From: Bacteroidales bacterium
Lineage (GTDB): Bacteria; Bacteroidota; Bacteroidia; Bacteroidales; UBA7960
Reading direction: 5' to 3'
DNA: 32,900 nt
Assembly: GCA_007129255.1 (NCBI GenBank)
Contig: SKVW01000131.1
Coordinates: 1 to 32,900 of the forward strand
Part shown: positions 3,153 through 19,082 of the stretch, in pieces
Layout of the letters: every line of letters starts with the position of its first letter
Numbering within the stretch: position 1 is the stretch's first letter
Position numbers and translations under genes: made by a program
The notes under the pieces: generated by a model
Told to the model about the DNA's origin: nothing
Database searches by the model: none
What the model saw: the letters and a program-made list of their open reading frames with translations, nothing else

Positions 3153-3174
3153 GGAGGGTGACCCCTCCTTTTTT
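3153..3174 (+). terminator. Rho-independent terminator after pgk
   Basis: Perfect 6-bp stem GGAGGG (3153-3158) / CCCTCC (3163-3168) with a TGAC loop, followed by six T (3169-3174). On the minus strand the same stem is followed by GTTTTTATG, so it can also end the convergent kinase transcript. Its T-run overlaps the kinase stop codon at 3173-3175. Confidence 0.85.
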
Positions 3175-5515
3175 ATGTCATGCGGTGAATAATTTCCATT
3201 AATTTTTGTTCGTCAATGGGTTTGGAGATGTAATCATCCATACCTACTTCAAGAAATTTTTCCCGGTCTCCAGGAATGGCATACCCGGTAATGGCAATAA
3301 TAGGGATATGCTCACCTGTATCTTTTTCCATTTCCCGGATACGGCGGGCGGTTTCAAAGCCGTCCATTTTTGGCATTTGTCCATCCATCAAAACCAGATC
3401 GTAGGCGTTGTGTTCAAATTTCTCAATAGCCTGTAACCCATTGGAAGCGGTATCAACTTTCCAACCCTGCGATTTCAAAAATCCGGCAAGATAAAGCTGA
3501 TTAATGGCATCATCTTCTGCAACCAATATTTTCAATTCTTTTTCCACAACATTAAAGGTATCTTCTTCTTTTTTCTCAGGTGTCGGCAGGCGTTTTTCCA
3601 GGGAATGGCCCAACACGGGGATCTGAAAAGTAACTTTACTTCCTTTTCCAAAATCACTTTCAAAAACCACTTCGCCATTCATCAGCTCCACCAGGCTTTT
3701 AACAATATTCAAGCCCAGGCCGGTACCCTGGTATTCTTTTCGGGTGGAGATATCCAGCTGACGAAAAGATTCGAAGATCGTGGGAACATCCTCCTTTTTC
3801 ACCCCAATCCCTGTATCTTTAACGGAAAAACCGAGTTGAAGGTTCTCATTATCAGCATTTTTTTTCTCAACCTCTATCTCAACTTTTCCTTCATTGGTAA
3901 ACTTAACGGCGTTACTGATCAGGTTACTCAGTATTTGCCTGATCTTTTTCTCATCACTGTATATAAATTCAGGCAATGCATTCTTAAAGTGAATATTCAG
4001 TTCAATATTTTTTTGGGTAACCTGGGGTTTGAAAGCTTCCACCACTTCCTCGATGGTTTTCCGCAAGTTGAAATCGGAAAAAGTAAGTTCTATTTTGTTG
4101 GCTTCAATTTTTGAGAAATCCAGGATGTCATTCAAAATGCTCAAAAGGATATTTGAGGAGATCAGTATAGAGTTCAGGTAATTTTGCTGATCATCATCCA
4201 TTGGGGTTTTTCCAAGGGTTTTGGTCATTCCGATAATGGCATTGAGGGGGTTGCGGATTTCATGGCTCATATTGGCCAGGAATTCAGATTTGGCCTTGTT
4301 GGCTCGTTCGGCAACCTCCTTGGCTTTAAGCAATTCTTCTTTTTCTTTACGTTCGGTAATATCCCGGCTCACGCAAACGATCTCTTCCACCACTTCGGTT
4401 TTGGGGTTGTAAAGCACCTGGTTGTTGGTTTCAAACCATATGTATTGCCCGTTACTTTTTCTGATGCGGTAACTTTCGATAAAAGAACCGGATTGGCTTT
4501 CAAGCATTTTAACATGATTCTGCCTGACACTTTCAATATCTTCGGGATGGATGAGCTGGTAGGCAGATTGACCCACGAGTTCTTCCGGCTCAAACCCAAG
4601 TAGGTGTCTGCTGGCAGGCGACACATAAAGGTAGGTGCGATCCCAGTTATGTTTGGATATCATATCGCTTGAGTTTTCAGCCAGGATACGATAGCGTTCC
4701 TCACTGATGCGCAGGGCTTCTTCAACCTGTTTGCGCCCGGAAATGTTGCGTATGGTACCAATGATCTTCCGGGGAGCCCCATCCTGGTGATACAGGTATT
4801 TGCAGGTGAAAGAACAGGGGATTCTTACTTTGTCCTTGCGGGTAAGGTAAACTTCAAAGTCTGAAACATATCCTTTATGTTGAAGTTTATCAATAAACAG
4901 GTTTTCGACATTTTTGTCGTCAAAAAAAGGTTTGCCCAGCAGTTCTTCCTTTTTATAGAAAAATACATTTTCTGCCGAGGGCGACAATTCAATAACAAAA
5001 GCATCGGGGGTAAGTTCAAAATAAACATCCTGGATGTTTTCAAAGATACTGCGGTGCTTTTCCTCACTTTTTTTGAGAGCTACCTGCGATTCAGCCAACT
5101 GCTGCTGCACATTTAGATGGTTAATAACCTGGTATACCACGGTAGGCAAAAGATCAATGAAGCTGGAGTCTTTGACCATATAATCCAGAGCACCAAGCTT
5201 CATCATTTCCACAGCAGTTTTTTCATCTCCATGTCCGGTAATGATTACAAACGGAATGTTAATGTCTTCATTTTTTAAAGTTCTGACCATTTCCTCACCG
5301 CTCATATCGTAGAGGTTATAGTCCAGTAAATAAAGGACTTTTTCGTCGGGATTTCGCCGGATCCATTCAAGGGCCTCACTCCCGGTAAAAAACCCTTCCA
5401 TTGTAAATCCCTGTTTCTCCAGTCTTTTTTGGATCAACTTATTCAGGGCAATATCATCCTCTACCACAACGATTTGATATTGTTGATGGTGAGTATATTC
5501 AAAAAATTGCTGCAT
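3173..5515 (-). CDS. Hybrid sensor histidine kinase, REC-PAS-PAS-HisKA-HATPase-REC
   Basis: A 780-residue soluble hybrid kinase with no membrane segment, so it senses a cytoplasmic signal or receives phosphate from another kinase. Domains: N-terminal receiver (about 13-135; VVEDD, phospho-acceptor D65 in LLDYNLYD, K115); two PAS domains (about 150-262 and 270-392); HisKA with H418 in NMSHEIRNPLNAIIG; HATPase_c with N-box N531/N535, G1 box D567 in DTGIGV and G2 box GTGLGL (597-602); C-terminal receiver (about 661-778; VAEDD, D711 in LMDGQMPKMDG, K765). No Hpt domain is present, so phosphotransfer to an Hpt protein or to the neighbouring regulators is an inference. It is the last gene of the three-gene cassette. 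A 100-bp gap upstream contains its own promoter candidate. The N-terminal receiver is visibly paralogous to that of the adjacent cyclase. Confidence 0.93.
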   Translation of the reverse strand: MQQFFEYTHHQQYQIVVVEDDIALNKLIQKRLEKQGFTMEGFFTGSEALEWIRRNPDEKVLYLLDYNLYDMSGEEMVRTLKNEDINIPFVIITGHGDEKTAVEMMKLGALDYMVKDSSFIDLLPTVVYQVINHLNVQQQLAESQVALKKSEEKHRSIFENIQDVYFELTPDAFVIELSPSAENVFFYKKEELLGKPFFDDKNVENLFIDKLQHKGYVSDFEVYLTRKDKVRIPCSFTCKYLYHQDGAPRKIIGTIRNISGRKQVEEALRISEERYRILAENSSDMISKHNWDRTYLYVSPASRHLLGFEPEELVGQSAYQLIHPEDIESVRQNHVKMLESQSGSFIESYRIRKSNGQYIWFETNNQVLYNPKTEVVEEIVCVSRDITERKEKEELLKAKEVAERANKAKSEFLANMSHEIRNPLNAIIGMTKTLGKTPMDDDQQNYLNSILISSNILLSILNDILDFSKIEANKIELTFSDFNLRKTIEEVVEAFKPQVTQKNIELNIHFKNALPEFIYSDEKKIRQILSNLISNAVKFTNEGKVEIEVEKKNADNENLQLGFSVKDTGIGVKKEDVPTIFESFRQLDISTRKEYQGTGLGLNIVKSLVELMNGEVVFESDFGKGSKVTFQIPVLGHSLEKRLPTPEKKEEDTFNVVEKELKILVAEDDAINQLYLAGFLKSQGWKVDTASNGLQAIEKFEHNAYDLVLMDGQMPKMDGFETARRIREMEKDTGEHIPIIAITGYAIPGDREKFLEVGMDDYISKPIDEQKLMEIIHRMT

Positions 5516-5615: not shown

Positions 5616-6884
5616 TCAGCTTTTGTTTTCTTCGGTGGCTAACCCTGAGATCAGGGAGGCTTTTTGCCAGAAGGTTCTATTGGGTTGCAGCCCTTTTTTA
5701 TCAGCAAAAAACCCCGGGACGATTTTATTCACAAAAAACATGGGCACTGCTTGCTCATTCTTTACAGGGATGTTACCTCTGGGGGTGCATTCAAACAAAT
5801 CGCCTACCAGGTCATGGGTATTTTTTGAAATATTCACTTTTCCCACCTCCCCTGCCATTACCATCCAGCTGGCCAGATTTGCGGCATTTCCCCAGATATC
5901 ATAGGCAAATTTTTTGCGTCCGATCACCCCGGCTACCACTTCACCCGTATGAATACCCAGGCGCAGTTCAAAAGCCGTTTTACCTTTTTTATGGGCTTTT
6001 GCTCCCATCTCTTTAACCAACTCCTGGATATGAAGGCCTGCCAGAACCACCTTGAACGGATGCAGGGGATCTTCCAGGGGCAGTCCGCCGGCACACATAT
6101 AACAATCTCCAATGGTTTTGATCTTTTCCAGATTTTGCTGCTCAATAATGGTGTCAAAGGCACAAAAATATTCATCCAGTTTTTCAACCAATTCAATGGG
6201 GGTAAAAAAAACAGATTTGGAAGAAAAAGCCTCAACATCGGCAAACATTACAGTGACTTTTTCATAATAACGGGCTTTGGCGGTGCCTTTATCCATTAGC
6301 TCACGGGCTATTTTCTCGGGGAGAATGTTTCTGAGTAAGCGGTCTTTCTCGGCCTTTTCAACTTCAAGCGCAGTATTTTGCCGTGTAATACGGGCATTCA
6401 GCTCTTTTTGTTTTTGAATGCTTTTTTGAAGTTTGAGGCGGGAGACTTCCAGTTCTGTTTTTAATTGTATATGCTCAAAAGCTTGGTCTACGGCCATATG
6501 AACCCTGCGAAAAAAACCTTTTTCCTTAATCAGGTAATCAATGGCACCGGCTTTCATTATTTCCACGGCAGTGCGTTCATCTCCACCCCCGGTCATAATT
6601 AAGAAATGAAGAGGCTGGCCGGGTTTTCTGATTTTTTGTACGATATCCAGGGCCGTTATATCGCTTAAAAAATAATCCAGTAATAACAAAACCTGGTTGT
6701 CGGGTTGTTCTTTTTCCAGGTGAGATTCAAAGTCGGCTACAGTATGAAAAGTTTTGACCTCATAACCTTCCCTTTTTAACGTGCTACTGATGTATTGATT
6801 CACTATCCTGTCATCTTCCACAATCCAAACCTTGCGTGGAGTTTTAAAACCGGATCCTTCGTATTTTTTATTTTTTTCCTGCAT
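5616..6884 (-). CDS. Response regulator with class III adenylate cyclase output domain
   Basis: A 422-residue protein: receiver (about 18-135; IVEDD, phospho-acceptor D70 in LLLLDYFLSD, K120), a coiled-coil linker (about 138-190), and a class III nucleotide cyclase domain (about 205-388). Metal-binding Asp residues are D216 (MFADVEAF) and D260 (KTIGDCYM). K256 and D329 (AYDIWGN) are the pair that selects ATP over GTP, so cAMP is the predicted product. The catalytic Asn is present (N336 in ANLAS). The transition-state Arg that normally follows four residues later (NxASR) is Trp, W340. Activity is therefore uncertain. The gene starts 3 bp after the preceding response regulator's stop, indicating one operon. 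Phosphorylation of the receiver would be expected to control dimerisation of the cyclase through the coiled coil. Confidence 0.92.
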   Translation of the reverse strand: MQEKNKKYEGSGFKTPRKVWIVEDDRIVNQYISSTLKREGYEVKTFHTVADFESHLEKEQPDNQVLLLLDYFLSDITALDIVQKIRKPGQPLHFLIMTGGGDERTAVEIMKAGAIDYLIKEKGFFRRVHMAVDQAFEHIQLKTELEVSRLKLQKSIQKQKELNARITRQNTALEVEKAEKDRLLRNILPEKIARELMDKGTAKARYYEKVTVMFADVEAFSSKSVFFTPIELVEKLDEYFCAFDTIIEQQNLEKIKTIGDCYMCAGGLPLEDPLHPFKVVLAGLHIQELVKEMGAKAHKKGKTAFELRLGIHTGEVVAGVIGRKKFAYDIWGNAANLASWMVMAGEVGKVNISKNTHDLVGDLFECTPRGNIPVKNEQAVPMFFVNKIVPGFFADKKGLQPNRTFWQKASLISGLATEENKS

Positions 6885-6887
6885 GAA

Positions 6888-7325
6888 TCAGCAAGTATTT
6901 TCAGGAACAGTCACCGATTTAAGAAAAAGTCCAAGGCGACTGACCACATCCGTAAACTGCTCATAACTTATGGGCTTAACAATATACCCGCTACAACCCA
7001 AACGATAACATTCCTCTATTTCGTTTTTATTGTCCGTAGTAGAAAAAACAACAACGGGAACCTTTTTTAAAACCGGATGACTTTTAAGCGTTTCCAGTAC
7101 TTCCATCCCGTCTACCCTGGGCATTTTCAAATCCAAAATCAAAATGCACCGACAAAAATCTTTTTGTGGTACTTCCACCTGGGATAGAAAAAAACGAAGC
7201 ACTTCTTCTCCATTACCAAAATGAAGCACATGATTATCAACCCCAATCCTTGCAAGGTTCCTTCTGATCAGCAAAGCGTGATTCTCATCGTCTTCAGCAA
7301 GTATGATCTTAACAACTTTCTCCAT
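6888..7325 (-). CDS. Stand-alone response regulator (Rcp1-like single receiver)
   Basis: A 145-residue single receiver domain with no output domain. Counting from the ATG at 7325, it shows IILAEDDE, phospho-acceptor D65 in LILDLKMPRVDG, the Ser-Thr-Thr switch region VVFSTTD, and K117 in YIVKPIS. The long beta3-alpha3 region and CYRLGCSGYIVKP motif resemble the Rcp1 class, which usually shuttles phosphate to or from hybrid kinases. A start at 7340 would add MPILI; I prefer 7325 because family members begin right before the first beta strand. First gene of the cassette, 3 bp from the cyclase gene. It is divergent to the respiratory operon, and the intervening region holds no other gene. Confidence 0.9.
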   Translation of the reverse strand: MEKVVKIILAEDDENHALLIRRNLARIGVDNHVLHFGNGEEVLRFFLSQVEVPQKDFCRCILILDLKMPRVDGMEVLETLKSHPVLKKVPVVVFSTTDNKNEIEECYRLGCSGYIVKPISYEQFTDVVSRLGLFLKSVTVPENTC

Positions 7326-7804
7326 TATTAAAATGGGCAATTAATATGAGCAAAATCGAAATAGTTACCGTCAAAACCATCAAAATACTTTGCAAAAAAA
7401 AGAATTTTTATGATTTAAATGGTAAAATTTATCCAATATAATTAAATTTTTTTGTTTCGCCAGCAAATTTCTGTTGGTTTAAATCCACCAAACAGCCTTA
7501 AACAGGCAAACCCTTACCCTTATACCGGTTATTCCATTGAAGGACAACTTAATACATATGTATATATTCGACCAATGGCAGGGGTTTTATTTTGAATCAT
7601 TATGAATAAGGGGGCAGATGCCGAAACATGATTTTTTTTTATAATTTTACCCCCGTTGGCCTGATAAATTTGCCATCTTGGGTTTTTGAAACCTTTGTTT
7701 TTAATACCAGTCTGAGGTTCAATAAATTTATAGATATTTAGATGCCTGAAAAGGATTAAAAACCGTAACCCAAGAAATTAATCACAAAAAATAACCCAGG
7801 TAGT
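7326..7804. other. Non-coding divergent region upstream of the respiratory operon
   Basis: About 480 bp without a credible reading frame, between the response regulator and actA. It contains a -7-like TAAATTTG at 7665-7672 facing actA, a perfect 12-bp palindrome ATACATATGTAT at 7552-7563, and long A/T runs. Any regulation of the respiratory operon at the DNA level should act here. Confidence 0.6.
7665..7672 (+). promoter_or_regulatory. Candidate -7 element for the respiratory operon
   Basis: A perfect TAnnTTTG match (TAAATTTG) about 130 bp before the actA start. No TTG is present at the expected -33 distance, so it would need an activator or be a chance match in an A/T-rich stretch. Confidence 0.35.
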
Positions 7805-9001
7805 ATGCGCAAAAAACCTGCTCCCAACCGGAAAAAACCCCGCAACATCGGTTTTGGAATTTTTCTTTCCGCCTTTCTTTTGGTTGCTTATTTTTCATTG
7901 GTTTCTTTTTCCCGCGAAAATCCTGAAAGCGATAATGAGGAGCCGCCGGTAAACGGGGTAATAAGCCCGGAGGAGTTTACCCGCACCGATCTGCGAAAGG
8001 GGGAGCGTTTGTTTAAGGGACTTGTTGAGTTTGAGAGTGGTATACACGATTGCTCCTCATGCCATTATACCGTTCGATCCGACACCATGAACTGGAACCC
8101 CTCGGCCTACGAGCTGGCCAAACAATGGATCAGTGAGGAAAATTACAGCCTCAAAGAAAAGCTGGAAAACCCTGTAGGTGTTCGCATGATCAATGATCAT
8201 GAGGGGATGCAGATCACCGAAGAAGAAGAGCACCAACTAAATGCCTATCTTGCAAAGGTTTTTGAAGAGGGCCGCGGTGAATTGCAGGTCATTCCTGTCA
8301 ATGCATTTATTTTCTGGGGACTTGGGTTTTTAATGGCACTGGCCCTTATCGACCTGCTGATCACGCGCAAGATCAAGGTCAAAGCGTTTCACGTATTGAT
8401 ATTAATTGTTGGATTGGTTGTGCACATGCAGTATGCTGTTGCCGAAAGCCGGAGCCTTGGCAGAACCCAGGGGTATGCCCCGGATCAGCCAATCAAATTC
8501 TCCCATTTGGTGCATGCAGGCGAGCATGAAATTGACTGCAATTACTGCCACCAGATCACCAATTTCAGTCTCAGTGCGGGAATCCCATCCAACAATACCT
8601 GTATGAATTGCCACACGGTAATTCGGGAAGGCACCCACTCCGGAAGGTTTGAGATCAACAAGATCCATCAGGCCCACGAATCGGGTGAACCTGTCGAATG
8701 GATACGTGTGCATAAATTACCCGATCATAGTTATTTCAGCCATGCCCAGCATGTTAATGCAGGTAAAGCGGAATGTCAGGATTGTCATGGACCCATAGAA
8801 GAAATGCATATTGTTATGCAAACCGAAGACCTCTCTATGGGATGGTGCCTCACCTGCCACAGGGATTCCAGGGTAGATTTTCTCGACAACCCTTATTACG
8901 AAATTTATGAAAGGTTGCATAACGACATTAGGGAAGGAAGGATTGACGGAGTAACAGCAGCTGAAGTTGGCGGAGAAGATTGCATGAAATGCCATTATTA
9001 A
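7805..9001 (+). CDS. actA: Alternative complex III subunit A, multihaem cytochrome c
   Basis: A 398-residue membrane-bound cytochrome c of ACIII, the quinol-oxidising complex that replaces bc1. An N-terminal hydrophobic segment (about 14-34) is followed by a monohaem-like domain with CSSCH at 83-87, a pair of hydrophobic segments (about 164-186 and 194-214), and a pentahaem domain with CxxCH motifs at 245, 266, 324, 348 and 393. That makes six haem sites, one more than the pentahaem core described for Rhodothermus ActA. The extra site lies in the N-terminal domain. KFSHLVHAG and YFSHAQHV supply distal His ligands typical of multihaem ActA. First gene of the operon, 41 bp before actB. Role: passing electrons from the ActB Fe-S clusters to ActE and onward to the oxidase. 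Confidence 0.93.
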   Translation: MRKKPAPNRKKPRNIGFGIFLSAFLLVAYFSLVSFSRENPESDNEEPPVNGVISPEEFTRTDLRKGERLFKGLVEFESGIHDCSSCHYTVRSDTMNWNPSAYELAKQWISEENYSLKEKLENPVGVRMINDHEGMQITEEEEHQLNAYLAKVFEEGRGELQVIPVNAFIFWGLGFLMALALIDLLITRKIKVKAFHVLILIVGLVVHMQYAVAESRSLGRTQGYAPDQPIKFSHLVHAGEHEIDCNYCHQITNFSLSAGIPSNNTCMNCHTVIREGTHSGRFEINKIHQAHESGEPVEWIRVHKLPDHSYFSHAQHVNAGKAECQDCHGPIEEMHIVMQTEDLSMGWCLTCHRDSRVDFLDNPYYEIYERLHNDIREGRIDGVTAAEVGGEDCMKCHY

Positions 9002-9042
9002 TGTTGGTTTCATTTTTTAGAAACCTTCTCAACATAGATTAA

Positions 9043-12015
9043 ATGGAAAAAAAGTACTGGAAAAGTTTAGAGGAGATCCAACCTCAGAGCAACGGAAAAT
9101 ACCAGGAAAAGCAGGCTCCTTCAGAGGCCTCCTCCCCTATGGATATCCTGTCCGACGAATTGAACGAAAAATCTTCTTCCCGCCGTGACTTTTTGAAGTG
9201 GTGCGGGATCAGTTTTTTCTCTGCCACGGTGATATCTGCCTGTGAAAATCCCGTAAAAAAAGCCATTCCTTATTTAAACCAGCCTGAGGAGATTATCCCG
9301 GGAAAACCTACCTGGTATGCATCATCTTTTATACAGGGGAACGAATATTGCCCCATCCTGGTAAAGAATCGTGACGGACGCCCCATTAAGATCGAGGGCA
9401 ACGACCTTTCCTCCCTGACGACAGGAGGTACCAATGCCAGGGTACAGGCATCGGTACTGAGCCTTTACGATGACGGGGCCAGGTATAAAACTCCCATGGA
9501 GAACAGAAATTCCACTACCTGGGAAAAAACAGATCAAAAAATTCTTTCCAGGCTAAAAGATATTTCAGCCAATGGAGGACGCATGGTATTGGTAACCCCA
9601 ACCTTGGTCAGTCCCTCCACAAGATCACTCATTGATGAGGCGGTTCAGCATTTTCCGGGGCTGGAGGTGATCACCTGGGATGCCATTTCTTATTCCGCCA
9701 TTCGCAAAGCACACCAGGCAACATTTAACCGGGATATCATTCCAGGTTTCCGGTTTGACAAAGCTGACCTGATCATCAGCTTCAGTGCTGATTTTCTGGG
9801 CACCTGGCTTTCGCCGGTAGAATTCTCTGCACAATATGCCAAAACCAGGCGCCTTAAGAAAGAGAAAAAGGACATGTCGCGGCACATTCAATTTGAAAGC
9901 CACTTTTCCATTACAGGTGCCAATGCCGATCATCGCCACCCGGTTCATCCTGCCAAAGAGGCAAAAATATTAATGGCGCTGTATGACCGCATTGCCAATG
10001 CCACCGGCAACCCTGTCATCGGAGCCCCTGCTGTTGATTTTGATGTGGAAAACCTGGCAAAACAGATCCTGGAAAACCGTGGAAAAACCCTCGTGGTATG
10101 CGGACATAACCATTCCGGAATGCAAATGCTGGTCAATGGCATCAATTATATGACGGGTAACTATGAAAATACCCTTGAAACTTCTGTCCCTTATAATTCC
10201 GGCAAGGGCGACAATGAGGCTTTTGAAAACCTGGTTCAGGATCTTGAAAATGGAGAAGTGGATGCCATTTTGTTTTACAAAACCAATCCCCTCTACCATT
10301 ACCATCAGCCCGAAAAATTGAAGGCCGGGATTGAAAATACCCAACTGAGTATTTCATTTTCTACTGCCAAAGATGAAACGGCTGAAGCATGCGGTTTTGT
10401 GTTGCCCGATCACCACTTTTTAGAATCCTGGAATGATGCGGAATTTAAAGACGGATATTTCAGCCTGGCCCAGCCGGTAATTCGTCCCCTTTTCAAAACC
10501 CGTCAGTTTCAGGATACCCTGCTGACCTGGATGGAAAAAGAAACAGATTTTCATCAATATCTGAAATATCAGTGGGAAAAGGCAGTTTATCCCACCCAAA
10601 CCGAACACCCCGATTTTTATCAATTCTGGGTACATGCGCTGCAAAAGGGGATTTACGAAAAGCCGGCCACTGAAACTGAAAGTTTAAGCTATTCGCCCGA
10701 AACCTTAAATGAAGAAATAACCAGTGTAAAAACCCTTGCCAATCAAGAGGGAGAGGTTGTTTTCAACCTGTACCCGGGTTTGGCAATGTATGACGGTCAG
10801 GATGCCAACAATCCCTGGCTTCAGGAATTACCCGACCCTATTACCTCTGTGGCCTGGGACAATTTTGCAGCCCTGTCCCCTGTTACCCTCAAAAAAATGG
10901 ATCTTTCAGAGGGAGACCTTATCCGGGTCAACCAAAAAATCGAATTACCGGTGTTGGCACAGCCCGGGCAAGCCAACGATTGTATTTCCCTTGCTTTAGG
11001 ATACGGACGCACCCAAGCCGGCAAAGCCGGAAATAATGTAGGAGTAAATGCATTTCTGCTCAGCAAATGGGAAGAAGGAAACCGGTCTTTTTCCGGTGCA
11101 GTAAATTCCTGGGAAAAATCAGGAAGCGACCATCAGTTTGCCCGCACTCAGACCCATTTTTCCATGGAAGGCAGGGCCATCGTCAGAGAGTCAACCCTGG
11201 ACAAATACCAGAAAGACCCCGCTGCAGGAAACGAACTGCATCAATATCACGAAGACCACAAACTGACCCTTTATCCAGGGCACAATTACGAAGGGCACCA
11301 CTGGGCATTGATGGTAGACTTGAACAGTTGCACCGGATGTAGCACCTGTGTGATTGCTTGCCAGAGCGAAAACAACACCCCCGTGGTGGGCAAGGACGAG
11401 GTTAGAAGGCGCCGTATCATGCACTGGATGCGGATTGACCGGTACTACAACGGCACAGCCGAAAACCCCCAGGTGGTATTCCAGCCCCTGATGTGTCAGC
11501 ACTGCGACCACGCCCCCTGCGAAGCGGTATGCCCGGTAGCGGCCACTATGCACAGTAGCGAAGGTATCAACCAGGTGACTTATAACCGCTGTGTGGGTAC
11601 CAAATATTGCATAAACAACTGCCCTTATAAAGTCAGGCGTTTTAACTGGTTCCAATACGCCCAAAATGAACGGTTTGATTATAACATGAACTCGGATTTC
11701 GGCCGCATGGTGCTCAATCCGGATGTTACGGTAAGAGAAAGAGGAGTTGTGGAAAAATGCTCTTTCTGTGTACAGCGCATCCAGGATGCCAAGCTCAAAG
11801 CCAAAAATGAACGACGAAAACTCCGCGATGGTGAGGTCATTCCTGCCTGTGTGCAGGCTTGTCCATCCAAAGCCCTGGTATTTGGCGACCTGAACGACAA
11901 ACAAAGCCGGGTGGCAAAAATGATCCAGGATCCGCGGAATTATCACCTGCTGGAAGAGTTGCACACCTTGCCTACGGTGGGTTACCTGACCAAAATAAGA
12001 AACCCGAAGGCCTAA
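9043..12015 (+). CDS. actB: Alternative complex III subunit B, iron-sulfur / molybdopterin-like fusion
   Basis: A 990-residue periplasmic subunit that fuses a molybdopterin-oxidoreductase-like domain (no cofactor in characterised ActB) to a ferredoxin-like domain carrying three [4Fe-4S] and one [3Fe-4S] clusters. The N terminus has a Tat-type SSRRDFLK (45-52) followed by a hydrophobic stretch and VISAC, so C67 may also be lipidated. Cluster motifs lie in the last quarter: CTGCSTCVIAC (about 760), CQHCDHAPCEAVCP (about 817), CVGTKYCINNCPYKVRRFNW (about 850), CSFC (about 906) and CVQACPSKAL (about 936). The length agrees with family members. Lies between actA (41-bp gap) and actC (40-bp gap). 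Receives electrons from menaquinol oxidised at the ActB/ActC interface. Confidence 0.95.
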   Translation: MEKKYWKSLEEIQPQSNGKYQEKQAPSEASSPMDILSDELNEKSSSRRDFLKWCGISFFSATVISACENPVKKAIPYLNQPEEIIPGKPTWYASSFIQGNEYCPILVKNRDGRPIKIEGNDLSSLTTGGTNARVQASVLSLYDDGARYKTPMENRNSTTWEKTDQKILSRLKDISANGGRMVLVTPTLVSPSTRSLIDEAVQHFPGLEVITWDAISYSAIRKAHQATFNRDIIPGFRFDKADLIISFSADFLGTWLSPVEFSAQYAKTRRLKKEKKDMSRHIQFESHFSITGANADHRHPVHPAKEAKILMALYDRIANATGNPVIGAPAVDFDVENLAKQILENRGKTLVVCGHNHSGMQMLVNGINYMTGNYENTLETSVPYNSGKGDNEAFENLVQDLENGEVDAILFYKTNPLYHYHQPEKLKAGIENTQLSISFSTAKDETAEACGFVLPDHHFLESWNDAEFKDGYFSLAQPVIRPLFKTRQFQDTLLTWMEKETDFHQYLKYQWEKAVYPTQTEHPDFYQFWVHALQKGIYEKPATETESLSYSPETLNEEITSVKTLANQEGEVVFNLYPGLAMYDGQDANNPWLQELPDPITSVAWDNFAALSPVTLKKMDLSEGDLIRVNQKIELPVLAQPGQANDCISLALGYGRTQAGKAGNNVGVNAFLLSKWEEGNRSFSGAVNSWEKSGSDHQFARTQTHFSMEGRAIVRESTLDKYQKDPAAGNELHQYHEDHKLTLYPGHNYEGHHWALMVDLNSCTGCSTCVIACQSENNTPVVGKDEVRRRRIMHWMRIDRYYNGTAENPQVVFQPLMCQHCDHAPCEAVCPVAATMHSSEGINQVTYNRCVGTKYCINNCPYKVRRFNWFQYAQNERFDYNMNSDFGRMVLNPDVTVRERGVVEKCSFCVQRIQDAKLKAKNERRKLRDGEVIPACVQACPSKALVFGDLNDKQSRVAKMIQDPRNYHLLEELHTLPTVGYLTKIRNPKA

Positions 12016-12055
12016 AAAGAACCAATGAGTATGAACAGATTATAAACCATTGTCC

Positions 12056-13435
12056 ATGTTCAGCAAGAAAATAAGCCATGCCCTGGTAGAGGGCGACAAA
12101 AACTTCGGCCAGATCAGTGATGAACTGCTTTCCAATGTGGAGAGCAAGCCGGCCTTGTGGTGGTATGCAGGTTTGACCCTGGGCGCCATCTTTCTGGCCA
12201 TCGGTGGATGGGCCTTTTACATGACCCTGAGCCAGGGCATTGGAACCTGGGGATTGACCAATAGCGTTGCCTGGGGATGGGACGTCATCAACTTTGTCTG
12301 GTGGATTGGTATCGGACATGCCGGTACGGCCTTTACCATCTTTTTTCTGGTGTTCAGGCAAAAATGGGCAGGCTCCATCAACCGGTCTGCCGAAGCAATG
12401 ACGGTTTTTGCGGTAATGTGCGCAGGGCTATTCCCTTTGATCCATATGGGCCGGCCCTGGCTGGCGTTTTTTATTATGCCCTATCCCAATACCCGCCTGC
12501 TTTGGGTAAACTACAATTCGGCCTTATTCTGGGACGTGCTGGCCATCAGTACCTACCTGATCATGTCCGTCACCCTGTGGTACCTGGGTATGGTGCCCGA
12601 CCTGGCAACCATCGCCAATCGCACCAAAAATAAACTCAGAAAAACCATTTATGGGATATTCAGCCTGGGATGGAACGGTTCTTTGTATACATACAACCGC
12701 TACGAAACCCTGCTAAAACTTCTTGGTGGCCTTGCGGCCCCCCTTGTAATTTCGGTACACACCATTGTTTCTCTTAACTTTGCCATTTCGGTGCTGCCGG
12801 GCTGGCATGCTACCATCCTGCCGCCTTACTTTTTTGTAGGGGCAATATTTTCGGGATTTGCAATGGTTCTCACCCTCATGATCCTTATGCGCAAAGTGTT
12901 CAATATTTCCGACTACATTACACCGAAACATTTGGATAACATTGCACAGGTACTTAAATATAGCAGTTTGATCATTGCCCTGGCATATGCCACCGAAATA
13001 TTTATTGCTTGGTATTCAGGGGTGACCTATGAAATATACACTTTCTTTAATGCCAGGGCCACCGGGTCTTTCTCAACGGCCTTCTGGATCATGGTTTTTT
13101 GCAACGCCGTTGTACCGCAGGTTTTCTGGTGGGAAAAAGCCCGCAAAAACCTGCTCATCCTTTTCGCAGCGTCCATCCTGATCAATATCGGGATGTGGTT
13201 TGAGCGTTTTGTGATATTGGTATCCTCCCTTGCCGAAGACTTTCTTCCTTCCAGCTGGACACCCTATCAGCCCGCCATGGTTGATATCGGGATTTTTGTG
13301 GGCACCTTCGGGCTTTTCATTGTGGGGATGTTGTTGTTTGTAAGATTTATTCCCGTTATTGCCGTCAATGAGGTAAAACCTATTTCACGTATAGGAAAAA
13401 ATATAAACCCAAAATCGGAAAAAGATGAGCTATAA
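12056..13435 (+). CDS. actC: Alternative complex III subunit C, NrfD/PsrC-like quinol-binding membrane protein
   Basis: Integral membrane subunit of 459 residues with about ten hydrophobic helices, of the NrfD/PsrC family. It contributes the menaquinol site next to the [3Fe-4S] cluster of ActB. Seen directly: a hydrophilic N terminus (EGDKNFGQISDELL), then alternating membrane segments with conserved features such as WGWDVINFVWWIGIGHAGT and MGRPWLAFFIMPYP near the predicted quinol site. I use the ATG at 12056; a TTG at 12050 would add only two residues. Overlaps actD by 11 bp, indicating translational coupling. Sequence-based assignment to the ACIII branch is strong because of the neighbours. 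Proton translocation by this subunit is inferred from other family members. Confidence 0.94.
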   Translation: MFSKKISHALVEGDKNFGQISDELLSNVESKPALWWYAGLTLGAIFLAIGGWAFYMTLSQGIGTWGLTNSVAWGWDVINFVWWIGIGHAGTAFTIFFLVFRQKWAGSINRSAEAMTVFAVMCAGLFPLIHMGRPWLAFFIMPYPNTRLLWVNYNSALFWDVLAISTYLIMSVTLWYLGMVPDLATIANRTKNKLRKTIYGIFSLGWNGSLYTYNRYETLLKLLGGLAAPLVISVHTIVSLNFAISVLPGWHATILPPYFFVGAIFSGFAMVLTLMILMRKVFNISDYITPKHLDNIAQVLKYSSLIIALAYATEIFIAWYSGVTYEIYTFFNARATGSFSTAFWIMVFCNAVVPQVFWWEKARKNLLILFAASILINIGMWFERFVILVSSLAEDFLPSSWTPYQPAMVDIGIFVGTFGLFIVGMLLFVRFIPVIAVNEVKPISRIGKNINPKSEKDEL

Positions 13436-13937
13436 ACATATTATCGGCGTCTTTGATGATGAAGCTTTATTGCTGAAAGCTTTCCGGAAGTTAAAGAAGA
13501 ATGGGGCAAACATTAAGGATATTTACGGCCCTTTTGCTGACCATGATCTGATGAAAGCTTTTGCTCCCGAATCCCGTCTTCCTTACCTATCCTTTGTTTT
13601 TGCCGTGATGACCATCATAGGGGCTTTTGGCTTTTTATATTATACCGCCGTTATTGATTACCCCCTGAACTATAGTGGCAAGCCGTATTTCAGCTTCCCA
13701 TCCATGGTGGTCGTTTTGTTTTTGCTTACCATTTTGGTGACGGGCGGATTATCGGTAGTCACTTTTTTGGGAAGGACACAGCTTTTTCCCGGGAAGGAAG
13801 CCAAAATGCCCGATCCTCAAGCCATGGACAATCGCTTTTACCTGGTGCTGGATCAAAACTTTAATCCTGAGGATATAAAAAAGTGGCTGAAGGAAAGCGG
13901 AGCGGAAGATGTCCTGGAAAAAGAAATTGACTTTTAA
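13425..13937 (+). CDS. actD: Alternative complex III subunit D
   Basis: A 170-residue subunit matching the DUF3341/ActD pattern: a hydrophilic N-terminal ferredoxin-like stretch (YKHIIGVFDDEALLLKAF), GANIKDIYGPF, two membrane helices (about 54-78 and 92-114), and a C-terminal cytoplasmic tail with FYLVLDQNF. No cofactor motif is present, as expected. It packs against ActC/ActF in known structures; its precise function is structural or unknown. The start codon lies inside the actC 3' end, and actE follows after 15 bp. Confidence 0.9.
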   Translation: MSYKHIIGVFDDEALLLKAFRKLKKNGANIKDIYGPFADHDLMKAFAPESRLPYLSFVFAVMTIIGAFGFLYYTAVIDYPLNYSGKPYFSFPSMVVVLFLLTILVTGGLSVVTFLGRTQLFPGKEAKMPDPQAMDNRFYLVLDQNFNPEDIKKWLKESGAEDVLEKEIDF

Positions 13938-13952
13938 CCTTAATTTTTGCAT

Positions 13953-14540
13953 ATGACCGGCAAAAGACCAATCATAAAACCCAGGAGCAAAATCTTTTTT
14001 GCGGCCTTTACTTTGCTATCGGTACTGTTTTTTTCGTGCGACCGCACCCGGGAAGATAAAGGATATGAATATTTTCCTGATATGGTGCACGGCCATGCTT
14101 ATCAGACTTATTCCGATAACCCGGCCATGGAGGATGGAAGGACTATGCGAGAACCGGTTGAAGGCACCGTTCCCCGGCATCTGGTTCCTTATCCTTACGC
14201 CGCTGACTTTGAAGGCCGCGAGCAAGCCGGGCAAGCCCTGAAAAACCCTTTGACAATGAGCGACAAACTGCTTGCAGAAGGCAGGGAGCTTTACAGGGTT
14301 TATTGCAGCAACTGCCATGGGGAATCAGGAGATGGACAGGGCAACCTGCACACCAGCGGTGCTTACATTATTACGCCCACTTCTCTGCTTGACCCCAGAG
14401 TAAAGGAAATACCCGAAGGAGAAACCTACCATGTAATAACTGCCGGATGGGGCGTAATGGGGGCACATGCCTCCCTGATCCAACCGGAAGATCGCTGGAA
14501 GATCGTGGCATTTATTGAACAAGTATTACAGGAAAAGTAA
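13953..14540 (+). CDS. actE: Alternative complex III subunit E, monohaem cytochrome c lipoprotein
   Basis: A 195-residue lipid-anchored cytochrome c. The signal peptide ends in a lipobox (SVLFFSC, lipidated C29). The mature part starts with a long linker containing a PVEGTVPRHLVPYPY segment typical of ActE. The haem c site is CSNCH (118-122) with likely axial M169 in GVMGAHA. It hands electrons from ActA to the caa3 oxidase or to soluble carriers. I use the ATG at 13953, which puts the n-region directly before the hydrophobic core; a TTG at 13947 is in frame but less likely. Gaps are 15 bp upstream and 13 bp downstream. Confidence 0.94.
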   Translation: MTGKRPIIKPRSKIFFAAFTLLSVLFFSCDRTREDKGYEYFPDMVHGHAYQTYSDNPAMEDGRTMREPVEGTVPRHLVPYPYAADFEGREQAGQALKNPLTMSDKLLAEGRELYRVYCSNCHGESGDGQGNLHTSGAYIITPTSLLDPRVKEIPEGETYHVITAGWGVMGAHASLIQPEDRWKIVAFIEQVLQEK

Positions 14541-14553
14541 AATACAATTCCAA

Positions 14554-15714
14554 ATGGAAGCAACTTACAAACCATCCCAATCCATAAAAATTGCGACCGC
14601 CCTGATGCTGGCTGTTGGTATTGCGGCAGTGGTCGTCGGCTTCACCACTGATCCATCAAGAACATGGGCCAACCTTTTGCTCAACAACATGTTTTTTCTG
14701 ACCATCAGCATTGGTGCGCTGATGTTTTACAGCCTGCAATACATCACACAGTCCAGCTGGTCGGCCATGTTTCAGCGCATTCCCCTGGCCCTGGGTGCTT
14801 TTTTGCCCGTTGCTGCCATTTTGATGCTTCTGCTTTATTTCGGGTTACCAGATATTTATAAATGGGCTCAACCCAACATTACGGAAACCGATAAACTGAT
14901 TGCCCATAAATCACCCTTTTTAAATGTACCTTTTTACATGATCAGGATGGTTGTGTATTTTACACTCTGGATTTCCCTGGGATACGCATTGAGAAAGTTT
15001 TCTGTAAAAGAGGACCAAAAAGCGGACATCAAATACTATAAAAAAAGCAGTTTTTTTTCAAAAGTTTTCGTTTTTATTTCGGTAATATTTTTCTCCCTGG
15101 CCGCTATTGACTGGATCATGACCATTGACGCTCATTGGTACAGCACACTTTTTGGTTTCAGGGTAATGGTTACCAGTATGTATTATGCAGTTGCCCTGAT
15201 CGTATTGCTGCTGTTTTTTCTTAATGACAAAGGTTATTTTACACAGCTTAACAAAGCCCACCGCAACGATCTGGCAAGGTATCTTTTCCGTTTCAGTATT
15301 ATTTTTGGTTACCTTTGGTTTATGCAATTCCTGATCATTTGGTATGCAGACATTCCTGAGTTGACCGCTTATTATTATCCCCGTTTTGTAGGGGAATGGC
15401 AGGGGTTCTTTTATGCCGAGATCGTGATCAATTTTGCGATCCCTTTTCTCGCCCTGATGTCGGATGAGATCGGAAGGAAAAAAGAGGTGCTTATTGCCAT
15501 CAGTTTATTATTGGTGGTTGGGTTATGGATCAGCCTTTTTCTTCAAATCATGCCGGGAAGTTATGGAGAGATCCGGTTTGGGTTTGTTGAAGTTGGCCTT
15601 TGGATCGGATATGCCGGTTTGTTTGTCATCATTGTTTTGGAATCCCTTAGCAGAAGTGCGCTAATTCCAAAGAATCACCCCATGCTGGAAGAAAGTGTCC
15701 ATCATCATTTGTAA
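14554..15714 (+). CDS. actF: Alternative complex III subunit F, integral membrane protein
   Basis: A 386-residue membrane subunit with about ten helices, related to ActC but without a partner Fe-S surface. It forms the second half of the membrane domain and is proposed to belong to the ion-translocating part of ACIII. Recognisable stretches are WANLLLNNMFFLTISIGALMF, SLAAIDWIMTIDAHWYSTLFG and IIWYADIPEL. The start is the ATG at 14554, 13 bp after actE; the in-frame TTG at 14515 lies inside actE and is not needed. The next gene (sco) begins 19 bp downstream. Confidence 0.93.
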   Translation: MEATYKPSQSIKIATALMLAVGIAAVVVGFTTDPSRTWANLLLNNMFFLTISIGALMFYSLQYITQSSWSAMFQRIPLALGAFLPVAAILMLLLYFGLPDIYKWAQPNITETDKLIAHKSPFLNVPFYMIRMVVYFTLWISLGYALRKFSVKEDQKADIKYYKKSSFFSKVFVFISVIFFSLAAIDWIMTIDAHWYSTLFGFRVMVTSMYYAVALIVLLLFFLNDKGYFTQLNKAHRNDLARYLFRFSIIFGYLWFMQFLIIWYADIPELTAYYYPRFVGEWQGFFYAEIVINFAIPFLALMSDEIGRKKEVLIAISLLLVVGLWISLFLQIMPGSYGEIRFGFVEVGLWIGYAGLFVIIVLESLSRSALIPKNHPMLEESVHHHL

Positions 15715-15733
15715 AAAAGAAAAACAACATATT

Positions 15734-16516
15734 ATGAGAGCCTTATTATTAACTTTATGCCTGCTGACCGTTTATGGGAGCATTTCCTCCCAGGATATGG
15801 GAAGGCAATACCAGCCGAAAGAAGGAGAAATCGGCATTTTTGAAAAACTGGACGAGTACCTGCCGGAAAATATTTCGCTGATCGACCACGACGGCAATAC
15901 CGTTTCCATGAACAACCTGCTTGACAAGCCCACGGTGCTGGCCCTGGTCTATTACCGCTGCCCCGGCATATGCAGCCCTTTTATGGAAGCCATGGCCCAG
16001 GCGTTTTCCCGCTCCGATATGGCACTGGGAAAAGATTTCCAGGTCCTTTCCATCAGCTTTGACCCCAGGGAAGGCCCCGGGCTGGCCAAAACCAACCGCA
16101 ACACCTATCATCACCTGGTAACCAAAGATTTTGATCCGGAGGGATGGAAGTTTTTTGTAGCCGACAGCACCAATATTCGCAGGATCACAGAAGCAGTTGG
16201 CTTCAAATACCGCCGCACGGGTTTCGATTTTTTGCATTCCTCGGCCATGATCTTTGTAAGCAAAGATGGTAAAATAACCCGCTACCTGCATGGTACCTAT
16301 TTTCTTCCCATTGACCTTAAAATGGCAGTGATCGAAACCTCTGAAGGAAAGTCAGGACCTTCCCTGAGCAGGGTACTGGCTTATTGCTATACCTATGACC
16401 CGGAAGGCCAGCAATATGTTATGAATATTACCAAAGTAGCGGGAACCCTGATACTGTTTTTTGCGGTACTCTCTTTCCTGGTGCTGGCTCTGAAACCAAG
16501 AAAACGGACAACTTAA
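15734..16516 (+). CDS. SCO1/SenC/PrrC-family copper chaperone for CuA assembly
   Basis: A 260-residue thioredoxin-fold protein that delivers copper to, or reduces, the CuA site of oxidase subunit II. It carries a cleavable-looking signal peptide (about 1-20), the CxxxC copper motif C76-P-G-I-C80 in YYRCPGICSPF, the third ligand H168 in FDFLHSSAMIF, and a C-terminal membrane helix (about 234-253) that would tether it to the inner membrane. Many Sco proteins are anchored at the N terminus instead, so this one may carry anchors at both ends. The start is the ATG at 15734, since a GTG at 15695 would lie within actF. Its position between the ACIII and oxidase genes fits its role in maturing ctaC, which is encoded downstream. 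Confidence 0.93.
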   Translation: MRALLLTLCLLTVYGSISSQDMGRQYQPKEGEIGIFEKLDEYLPENISLIDHDGNTVSMNNLLDKPTVLALVYYRCPGICSPFMEAMAQAFSRSDMALGKDFQVLSISFDPREGPGLAKTNRNTYHHLVTKDFDPEGWKFFVADSTNIRRITEAVGFKYRRTGFDFLHSSAMIFVSKDGKITRYLHGTYFLPIDLKMAVIETSEGKSGPSLSRVLAYCYTYDPEGQQYVMNITKVAGTLILFFAVLSFLVLALKPRKRTT

Positions 16517-16539
16517 CCCACTAAATCATCCATAATAAC

Positions 16540-18147
16540 ATGTCAGAATCAACCAAAAGCAATCACACAAGTTTCCTTGAATACAAGGGAAAATACAGGG
16601 GCATACTGGGTTGGATATTATCTACTGACCATAAGCGCATTGGGTTGCTGTATTTGTATACCATGCTGGTTTTCTTTTCAGTGGCCGCCATTCTGGGCTT
16701 GCTGATGAAAATACAACTTATTGCTCCCGGGCATACCATCATGGGGCCGGCCACATACAATGCCATGTTTACCATGCATGGGATAATCATGATATTTATC
16801 ATTGTGGTACCGGGATTACCCGCTGTTTTCGGCAACTTTTTCCTTCCCCTGATGATCGGAGCCAAGGATGTGGCCTTTCCAAAATTAAACCTGGCTTCAT
16901 GGTGGATTTATGTGATCGGTATCCTGATTGTACTGACTTCCCAGTTTTTGGGTGATGGTCCTCCCGATACCGGTTGGACCTTTTATGCCCCTTACAGCTT
17001 TCAGACCCCGGCCAATATCGTTCCTGCCCTTGTAGGGGCATTTGTGCTTGGTTTTTCCTCCATTCTTACCGGTATCAACTTTGTGGTGACAATCCACCGG
17101 TTGCGGACTCCCGGCATGACCTGGTTTAAAATGCCGTTATTCCCCTGGACCCTTTATGCCACTGCATGGATCCAGATCCTTGCCACTCCGGTAATTGGCA
17201 TCACCCTGCTGCTTACGGTAATGGAACGCACTTTGGGCGTTGGTATTTTTGATCCCGCCCTTGGGGGAGATCCCATTCTTTACCAGCACCTGTTTTGGAT
17301 TTATTCGCACCCTGCAGTATATATCATGATTTTGCCGGGTTTAGGAGTGATCAGTGAAATCATACCTGTTTTTTCCAGGAAGCGTATATTCGGGTACAAG
17401 GCCATTGTCCTTTCTTCTCTTGCCATTGCATTTGTGGGCTATTTTGTATGGGGGCACCACATGTTTACGTCGGGGATGAGCGGAAGAGCCTTATTTGCTT
17501 TCAGCTTCCTTACTTTTTTGGTAGCCATACCGTCTGCCGTTAAAGTGTTTAACTGGGTGGCCACCATGTATAAAGGCTCACTGATATTTCAAACCCCGTT
17601 TTTCTGGGCGGTATCTTTTATTTTCGTGTTTATGATTGGAGGGTTCAGCGGCCTCACCCTCGGCTCTTTGGCCACCAACGTGCATTTGCACGATACCCAC
17701 TTTGTAGTGGCACACTTCCATTTTATTGTTTTTGGAGGGACCGGCTTTTCATTCCTGGCAGCAATCCATTATTGGTTTCCCAAAATGTTTGGACGTATGT
17801 TTGATGCCAGCTGGGCCAACATCGGATGGGTGGTATTTTTTGCCGGCTTTCTTACCCTATATTTGCCCATGTTCTCCCTTGGCATCATGGGCATGCCCAG
17901 AAGATACTACGATTACCTTCCTGAGTTTCACGCAGCCAACATCCTGTCTTCTCTTGGAGCCATGCTGATGATTGCCGGGGCCATGATCATCATTGTCAAT
18001 CTTGTGCGATCCGCAAGGTATGGCAAAAAAACCAACGAAAAGAATCCCTGGGGTGGGAAAACCTTGGAATGGCAGGCCGATACCCCTCCCACCCTGGAAA
18101 ACTGGGAAGAAATTCCGGAAGTAACTGAAAAACCATACGAATACTAA
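16540..18147 (+). CDS. ctaD: Cytochrome c oxidase subunit I, A2-type (caa3) haem-copper oxidase
   Basis: Catalytic 535-residue subunit with about 12 helices; reduces O2 to water at the haem a3-CuB centre. Ligands seen: H80 (TMHGIIMIF) and H394 for low-spin haem, H392 for haem a3 (AHFHF), and H257, H306 and H307 for CuB (YSHPAVY, GHHMF). Y261 is placed for the His-Tyr cross-link. The helix VI motif is YSHPAVY rather than xGHPEVY, which places it in the A2 subfamily that uses Tyr-Ser instead of Glu at the end of the D-channel, as in Rhodothermus and Thermus caa3 enzymes. Lies 23 bp after sco and 11 bp before ctaE. Confidence 0.97.
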   Translation: MSESTKSNHTSFLEYKGKYRGILGWILSTDHKRIGLLYLYTMLVFFSVAAILGLLMKIQLIAPGHTIMGPATYNAMFTMHGIIMIFIIVVPGLPAVFGNFFLPLMIGAKDVAFPKLNLASWWIYVIGILIVLTSQFLGDGPPDTGWTFYAPYSFQTPANIVPALVGAFVLGFSSILTGINFVVTIHRLRTPGMTWFKMPLFPWTLYATAWIQILATPVIGITLLLTVMERTLGVGIFDPALGGDPILYQHLFWIYSHPAVYIMILPGLGVISEIIPVFSRKRIFGYKAIVLSSLAIAFVGYFVWGHHMFTSGMSGRALFAFSFLTFLVAIPSAVKVFNWVATMYKGSLIFQTPFFWAVSFIFVFMIGGFSGLTLGSLATNVHLHDTHFVVAHFHFIVFGGTGFSFLAAIHYWFPKMFGRMFDASWANIGWVVFFAGFLTLYLPMFSLGIMGMPRRYYDYLPEFHAANILSSLGAMLMIAGAMIIIVNLVRSARYGKKTNEKNPWGGKTLEWQADTPPTLENWEEIPEVTEKPYEY

Positions 18148-18158
18148 TAATTGCAAAG

Positions 18159-18776
18159 ATGGAAAAAAACGCAGAACATACGCATGTGCACCGCGATGAT
18201 GAAGGCGATAAGCTGGGCATGTGGTTGTTTATATTCACCGAACTCCTTTTGTTCGGTATGCTGTTTCTGATATACGCAGTTTACAGGTATCGCAACCCCG
18301 TGGCCTTTCAGTTAGGAGGAGAAGAGGTGGATGTTTTTATCGGCACCCTGAACACCGTATTGCTGCTCGTTAGCAGTGCAACAGTTGCTATGTCCATTTC
18401 CGCCATTCAAAAGGGGCTGAAAAAACATGCCCTTGTTTTTCTGGGGATTACCCTTTTAATAGCCTTGGTTTTTCTTGTAAACAAATATTTTGAATGGGGC
18501 GCAAAGATTGAGTATGGGTTTTACCCTGGTGGAGAAGCCCTGTTGGAGCTAGGACATGGCACCATATTATTTTTCGGACTTTATTATGTAATGACCGGAA
18601 TCCATGCCCTGCACATTCTCATCGGAATCGGCTTGTTTATTTATGTATTTCAGCAGATCAGGGCCGATAAGATACACAGCACAGATTACATCTGGCTGGA
18701 AAACACAGGACTTTACTGGCACCTTGTGGACATTATCTGGATATTCCTTTTCCCATTGTTTTACTTAATTCATTAA
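18159..18776 (+). CDS. ctaE: Cytochrome c oxidase subunit III
   Basis: A 205-residue five-helix subunit III of the short bacterial type. Motifs: KLGMWLFIFTELLLFG at the first helix, TVLLLVSSATVAMS, the FEWGAKIEYGFYPGG loop, GHGTILFFGLYYVMTGIHALH, and YWHLVDIIWIFLFPLFY at the C terminus, all typical of family members. A His-rich N terminus (HTHVHRDDEGD) precedes the first helix. It stabilises subunit I and keeps the D-channel active. 12 bp separate it from the following subunit IV gene. Confidence 0.95.
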   Translation: MEKNAEHTHVHRDDEGDKLGMWLFIFTELLLFGMLFLIYAVYRYRNPVAFQLGGEEVDVFIGTLNTVLLLVSSATVAMSISAIQKGLKKHALVFLGITLLIALVFLVNKYFEWGAKIEYGFYPGGEALLELGHGTILFFGLYYVMTGIHALHILIGIGLFIYVFQQIRADKIHSTDYIWLENTGLYWHLVDIIWIFLFPLFYLIH

Positions 18777-18788
18777 AAGAACCCGATC

Positions 18789-19073
18789 ATGAGCCAGGAA
18801 AAATCACATATCAGCAGCTATCAGTCCCATGTTTTTGTTTTGTTAGCTTTGCTTGCGCTCACGGCTATAAGTGTGGCAGTAACCACACTGGAACTGGGGA
18901 GGCTTGACACCCTGGTGGCCATGCTCATTGCCGCTACCAAAGCAGCCATTGTGCTGGTTTGGTTTATGCATTTAAAATTCGACAATAAGCTATACGCTAT
19001 TTTTACCGTGTTGGTACTTGTTGTATTTTTACTGGTACTTTATGTTACCTTTTTTGATTATTCATACAGATAA
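18789..19073 (+). CDS. ctaF: Cytochrome c oxidase subunit IV (prokaryotic, CtaF/CyoD-like)
   Basis: A small 94-residue membrane protein with three helices (about 13-30, 38-57, 65-89). The central VAMLIAATKAAIVLVWFMHLKFD segment is the hallmark of bacterial subunit IV. It has an assembly or stability role within the oxidase and no cofactor. Gaps of 12 bp and 9 bp to its neighbours indicate cotranscription. Confidence 0.93.
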   Translation: MSQEKSHISSYQSHVFVLLALLALTAISVAVTTLELGRLDTLVAMLIAATKAAIVLVWFMHLKFDNKLYAIFTVLVLVVFLLVLYVTFFDYSYR

Positions 19074-19082
19074 ACTTGAAAT

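Follow-up and report, generated by a model that had tools for sequence, protein, structure and literature searches.

The stretch of DNA that was analysed, hereafter the window, comprises 32,900 nucleotides of a Bacteroidales contig (SKVW01000131.1 of assembly GCA_007129255.1). At positions 5616 to 6884 its minus strand carries a gene with an ATG start codon for a protein of 422 amino acids, which consists of a receiver and a class III cyclase domain, as judged from the open reading frame, Pfam, an AlphaFold2 model and matches to class III structures. In whole-protein Pfam searches, the receiver (Response_reg; residues 19 to 121, positions 6522 to 6830) and the cyclase domain (Guanylate_cyc; residues 204 to 386, positions 5727 to 6275) were detected with E values of 5.3e-15 and 7.6e-47, respectively. 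PF00211 and PF00072 were the only Pfam matches in the protein, and PF10851 (DUF2652) gave none. The PF00211 match scored 159.7 bits against a curated cut-off of 21.9, which places the protein in class III. The AlphaFold2 model, obtained for a single chain from an alignment of 23 sequences, has a mean pLDDT of 87.5, and its cyclase part resembles solved class III domains such as 5o5l, 4p2f and 1cjk; among the 50 Foldseek matches listed, single-domain class III chains gave TM-scores by target length of 0.82 to 0.93. In the receiver, the acidic pair E23/D24, the phospho-acceptor D70 (positions 6675 to 6677), T98 and K120 are all in place. The alignment of the window protein with its relatives covers 17 genomes including that of the window, the proteins of G001 and G005 being cut by contig ends and that of G002 lacking a receiver; D70 is kept in all 15 of the 17 rows that reach this position.

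The cyclase gene is flanked by two further genes on the same strand, both assigned from open reading frames and Pfam. A single-domain response regulator of 150 amino acids (6888 to 7340) lies 3 bp upstream, and a hybrid histidine kinase of 780 amino acids with REC, PAS domains, HisKA, HATPase and another REC (3173 to 5515) lies 100 bp downstream. Divergently from this module, the plus strand carries an alternative complex III/cytochrome c oxidase/UbiA cluster (7805 to 20889), for which Pfam identified a multihaem cytochrome, an Fe-S protein, ActD, COX1, COX3, COX2 and UbiA; the other Act genes were named by gene order. A membrane pyrophosphatase gene (21004 to 23205) adjoins the oxidase cluster. 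Moreover, positions 26199 to 27611 encode a Porphyromonas-type peptidyl-arginine deiminase family protein with a Por secretion C-terminal sorting domain.

According to a residue check and the alignment rows, the cyclase domain keeps both metal-binding residues, D216 (6237 to 6239) and D260 (6105 to 6107), the ATP-selecting pair K256 (6117 to 6119) and D329 (5898 to 5900), and the catalytic, ribose-orienting N336 (5877 to 5879); these codons and those given below all lie on the minus strand. However, the transition-state Arg is absent. It is replaced by W340 in the window protein, encoded by a TGG codon (5865 to 5867) that is one base away from CGG, and by Leu in the related protein of G002. 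The original prediction, made from the letters of the window, had described this exchange to Trp; a script check found its residue numbers (D216, K256, D260, D329, N336 and W340) to be correct, and PDB alignments, alignment rows and the codon itself confirmed Trp at the catalytic site. A misplaced Arg was rejected because, in the PDB alignments with AC8, AC5 and AC9, W340 is paired with the Arg that their second (C2) domains have in the N-x-A-S-R-M motif, which keeps the catalytic position at 340. In mammalian cyclases, Arg1029, Lys1065 and Arg484 have been described to bind phosphate and to stabilise the transition state, and Asn1025 to position the ribose (PMC9223806). The equivalents of Asn1025, Lys1065 and Arg484 are kept here, whereas that of Arg1029 is lost. 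Lys1065 of the type II C2 domain corresponds to K375 (5760 to 5762) and Arg484 of the type V C1 domain, which contacts the phosphate tail (PMC9223806), to R308 (5961 to 5963), both equivalences having been counted by hand.

Position 340 was compared in 150 distinct cyclase-domain rows that comprise 80 named loci, further loci, and the 30 order-wide and 20 phylum-wide loci listed from profile searches with matches in 172 and 65 genomes, respectively. Among these listed matches, Arg occurs in 140 rows, Trp in six, Gln in two and Leu in one, and one row has a gap. The loss of Arg is thus as unusual as had been supposed, and seven of the nine non-Arg rows belong to one clade. The named loci have Arg in 78 cases, Trp in L032 and Gln in L061. 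L032, the nearest named record, is a MAG contig of Bacteroidales bacterium isolate CSSed165cm_562 and is identical to the G001 contig. Trp340 is present in the window genome (G000), G001, G006, G012, G019 and G023, that is, in the two genomes of the window's genus and in the four of g6; Leu340 (CTG) is found in G002, the single member of g2. The Arg that was sought in close relatives is absent from the window's genus and from g6, and it is present in all nine rows of the sister group g5 as well as in G021 (g4). The two Gln340 cyclases, which keep the other listed residues, come from a Chitinophagaceae MAG (L061, positions 6001 to 6984) and from genome G423 (L155). A separate observation concerns the cyclases at L122 (G021, genus g4) and L121 (G033, genus g5), whose proteins are identical across the assigned genera; this would suggest that one of the assemblies is contaminated or that the gene was transferred very recently.

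The seven proteins with Trp or Leu, all from uncultured Bacteroidales, form a clade (98/97) in a tree that was calculated from 146 rows. Its sister group consists of the nine g5 proteins (100/100), both together having a support of 99/94, with a bootstrap that had not fully settled. In a 38-row tree calculated without columns 335 and 340, the Trp/Leu proteins still group with an SH-aLRT value of 94, which came from a quick method and lies under the tool's mark of 95. Long branches were obtained in the larger tree for G019 (1.25) and G002 (0.6). The Trp proteins are 35 to 89% identical to each other, and identity to the window protein goes down to 35%. The original prediction had also considered a sequencing error or a recent mutation, to which the single base between TGG and CGG would lend itself. 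This explanation was rejected, and its probability is close to nil, because Trp is common to six of the seven clade members, from six assembled genomes of two genera, with Leu in the seventh. A Trp-motif pattern matched the 14 Trp loci and none of the other 183 among 197 loci. Across 198 genomes of the order, it matched only G000 and G167. The latter was rejected as a source of a further Trp cyclase; its translated frame, inspected by eye, is a repeat-type protein without a cyclase domain. Rare Trp cases may exist outside this sample.

The exchange at position 340 stands in an otherwise conserved domain. Of 39 columns that are at least 95% conserved in the 140 Arg-bearing rows, 335 and 340 are changed in all five intact Trp proteins, and the only other changes are F214Y, T356S or Y383F in some of them; G019 deviates at six of the 39. 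Leaving aside 335 and 340, three of the 37 conserved columns vary among the five proteins, all of them conservatively, as compared with 90 of the 159 other columns (binomial 7e-10, for positions and sequences that are not independent). At position 335, the alignment rows have Val in all 140 Arg-bearing proteins and Ala in six of the seven Trp/Leu proteins, including the window protein (A335, 5880 to 5882). R308 is kept in all 140 Arg-bearing and all seven Trp/Leu rows, and six of the seven clade members retain the other residues that were checked for contacts to metal, base, ribose and phosphate. In G019, K375 is changed to Thr, and its receiver has Cys for E23 and Glu for D24 of the acidic pair and Ile for T98. 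For two Trp pairs, the pairwise dN/dS values (Nei-Gojobori) were 0.057 and 0.111; four Arg pairs gave 0.060, 0.063, 0.071 and 0.077. Synonymous changes approach saturation in several of the pairs, and another four pairs yielded no usable value. Judged by these ratios, strong purifying selection acts on the cyclase gene, and the pattern of exchanges indicates that this is a selective change rather than a general decay of the domain.

It had been suggested that another Arg might substitute for the missing one. A scan of the positions that separate the clade from its sister group revealed no Arg that is common to all seven Arg-less proteins but missing from the Arg-bearing rows. What the alignment rows offer instead is a candidate for partial substitution at position 223 (K223 in the window protein, 6216 to 6218), which sits in the helix after the metal-binding D216, just past the phosphate loop and on the metal-binding side. 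The basic residue there is typical of the Arg-less clade, with Lys in five proteins, Arg in one (the Leu340 protein of G002) and Val in one (G019), whereas the 140 Arg-bearing rows have Ile, Leu or Val in 102 cases and Lys or Arg in six. The presence of Arg223 in the Leu340 protein is suggestive of compensation. As the count comes from one clade, it may reflect a single event.

Class III active sites are situated at the junction of two domains. If the protein formed a heterodimer with a second, Arg-bearing cyclase domain, in the manner of mammalian C1 and C2, a single such partner would therefore rescue one site. However, profile searches with PF00211 gave one match in each of the seven Arg-less genomes, and thus no second class III subunit was found in them that could lend an Arg. 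The completeness of five of these genomes is 91 to 97% (G000, 95%; G006, 91%; G012, 97%; G019, 92%; G023, 95%), and that of G001 and G002 is 73% and 68%, respectively. In contrast, two or three PF00211 matches were obtained in 11 of the 12 g5 genomes, and the Gln340 genomes have eight (L061) and two (L155). DUF2652 as a hidden partner was found in none of the 47 genomes of the window's family f1, a weak result in that the control genomes gave no match either. Moreover, C1-type halves lack the Lys, Asp and Asn as well as the Arg and work with a second cyclase domain. The window protein does not look like such a half, with K256, D329 and N336 kept and a single PF00211 match per genome. A heterodimer is hence considered very improbable.

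CYTH domains (class IV type) were absent from G000 and G001 and occurred once in each of the five other Arg-less genomes and in two of the three Arg-bearing genomes searched; a CYTH domain does not by itself imply a cyclase. In cNMP domains of cAMP receptors, the phosphate-binding cassette usually reads Glu...Arg. This cassette was absent from all 20 cNMP-domain stretches that were inspected by eye (16 of the 18 PF00027 matches of the Arg-less genomes and four from g5), and cAMP receptors of other kinds may be present. Since the four stretches from Arg-bearing g5 genomes also lack it, the missing cassette says little about the loss of Arg. Six loci (L177, L180, L183, L185, L189 and L193) encode long proteins (open frames of about 410 to 660 amino acids) with a cNMP-like domain and the cassette GEGT...PHST, which has His where cAMP receptors have Arg.

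The gene neighbourhood distinguishes the clade from its sister group. The hybrid kinase adjoins the cyclase in six of the seven Arg-less genomes, and in G002 only its first part is seen, as the contig ends within the kinase. The family of this downstream kinase is common to the Arg-less and the g5 loci. The small response-regulator family is also found upstream of the cyclase in seven of the ten Arg-bearing loci compared. In g6 and g2, no ORF of this family of at least 120 amino acids was observed next to the cyclase. The alternative complex III/oxidase cluster adjoins the cyclase module divergently in G000, G002, G006, G012 and G023. Beyond the kinase, PGK and an aminotransferase gene follow in four of these five genomes and in G001, whose contig begins in the cyclase gene. 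On the far side of the cluster in G000, G012 and G023, the oxidase genes and UbiA are followed by GT2, LPG-synthase-TM, a RuvC-like gene (a name given by eye), HIT and GreA, and the contig of G006 begins close to UbiA. The Arg-bearing g5 loci have other neighbours, which include, among those scanned, a CheB-CheR-PAS protein, an ABC transporter, an aminotransferase and receivers. In G019 (L125, G019:C106), the outer gene order is kept on both sides when compared with positions 512 to 32620 of the window. However, the oxidase cluster is missing between cyclase and GT2, as are the genes that follow it as far as GT2, and the kinase is a C-terminal remnant that matches only residues 659 to 780. Because the locus without the cluster has this kinase remnant, a receiver without E23 and T98, and Thr in place of K375, we read this as a sign, from one event, that the use of the module may depend on its respiratory neighbour.

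The Arg-less protein could still be a working, although slower, adenylate cyclase, in which K223 would share the charge stabilisation with R308 and K375, and Ala335 would make room for Trp340. The basic residue at position 223 in six of the seven Arg-less proteins, including the Arg of the Leu340 protein, is consistent with this idea, and so is the conservation of all other checked catalytic residues in six of the seven. Moreover, the protein has the only PF00211 domain found in genomes that may need cAMP. Arg mutants of mammalian adenylate cyclases keep some activity, and the loss of Arg therefore need not mean a loss of function. However, K223 is on the metal-binding side, its reach to the alpha-phosphate is conjectural, and Lys or Arg at this position is also present in six Arg-bearing proteins. 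A clear cAMP receptor did not emerge among the 20 cNMP stretches inspected by eye, which carries little weight as the g5 stretches are alike. A slow cyclase is thus possible, but we think it the weaker candidate when compared with an ATP-binding domain with crippled turnover. Alternatively, the cyclase domain may be a remnant that is being lost after cAMP signalling ended and that is kept for now by the receiver and the kinase. The long branches of G019 and G002 would agree with such a process, as would the missing receiver in G002, the truncated kinase in G019 and the lack of any PF00211 match in 22 of the 47 genomes searched in the family (25 have matches). In contrast, dN/dS is about as low as in Arg-bearing pairs, and the conserved positions of the five intact Trp proteins have hardly varied, which makes a decaying remnant rather unlikely.

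As far as sequences can tell, the loss of Arg is real, clade-wide and selectively maintained, and the enzyme that it affects is the sole class III cyclase detected in these genomes. The reading that we favour, with chances that we judge to be about even, is that of a clade-specific Arg-less class III cyclase whose domain binds Mg-ATP under the control of phosphorylation, its cyclization being crippled or very slow. The homodimer would still close on Mg-ATP and would cyclize it very slowly or not at all. We infer that the neighbouring hybrid kinase would phosphorylate D70, and that this would alter either the binding of ATP or the way in which the output domain dimerises. The task of the protein may be tied to the adjoining alternative complex III/oxidase cluster, for instance by making the control of terminal respiration responsive to the ATP status; this link is drawn from the gene order in one clade and from one apparent deletion. 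Tentatively, the paired change at positions 335 and 340, in a site that is otherwise intact, may have made a kinase-controlled ATP sensor that binds Mg-ATP without cyclizing it and reports the energy state to the oxidase cluster or, as a variant, may have moved the catalytic charge across the dimer interface to Lys or Arg223. The original prediction had proposed an inactive, phosphorylation-controlled binding protein. The conserved substrate and metal residues, the purifying selection and the kinase neighbour would fit a regulated nucleotide-binding domain, but the inactivity does not follow, as equally well-preserved catalytic residues would also be expected of a still active enzyme. In G002, no receiver was matched upstream of the cyclase domain, and phosphorylation control therefore cannot hold there in the same form.

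The proteins of the clade share with class III cyclases (PF00211; PDB 5o5l and 4p2f; mammalian C2 domains) the fold, the metal-binding Asp pair, the Lys/Asp pair, the Asn, the C2-type Lys and the phosphate-tail Arg. Unlike these, they have Trp or Leu for the catalytic Arg and, in six of seven cases, Ala for the Val before the Asn. The receiver-linked cyclases of g5 (ASR/AAR motif) resemble them in domain order and downstream kinase family, but differ by keeping Arg and Val335, by their gene neighbourhood and by the additional PF00211 matches in their genomes. The Gln340 cyclases likewise lack the Arg, but they are single cases that keep Val335 and come from genomes with more than one PF00211 match. 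Another comparison is provided by the DUF2652 proteins of Bacteroidetes, which are likewise class III-like and for which Gln, His, Tyr or Cys at the Arg position was predicted from sequence in some members (available part of PMC4886424). However, these belong to a different family with a Glu-Lys/Arg substrate pair and His in the transition-state pair, and Trp is not among the replacements given in that part of the source (PMC4886424).

In the literature searched, a scope outside which most subscription papers lie, neither a report of an Arg-to-Trp class III cyclase nor a worked-out case of a class III cyclase that has lost only its catalytic Arg and is kept under selection was found. The reuse of degenerate domains as receptors is common for GGDEF and EAL domains. 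As the Arg and Trp lineages are sister groups, a comparison of the two is ready-made. If the Trp proteins bind ATP without turnover, they would represent a clean natural pseudo-cyclase; if they still make cAMP, they would show how the catalytic Arg can be replaced.
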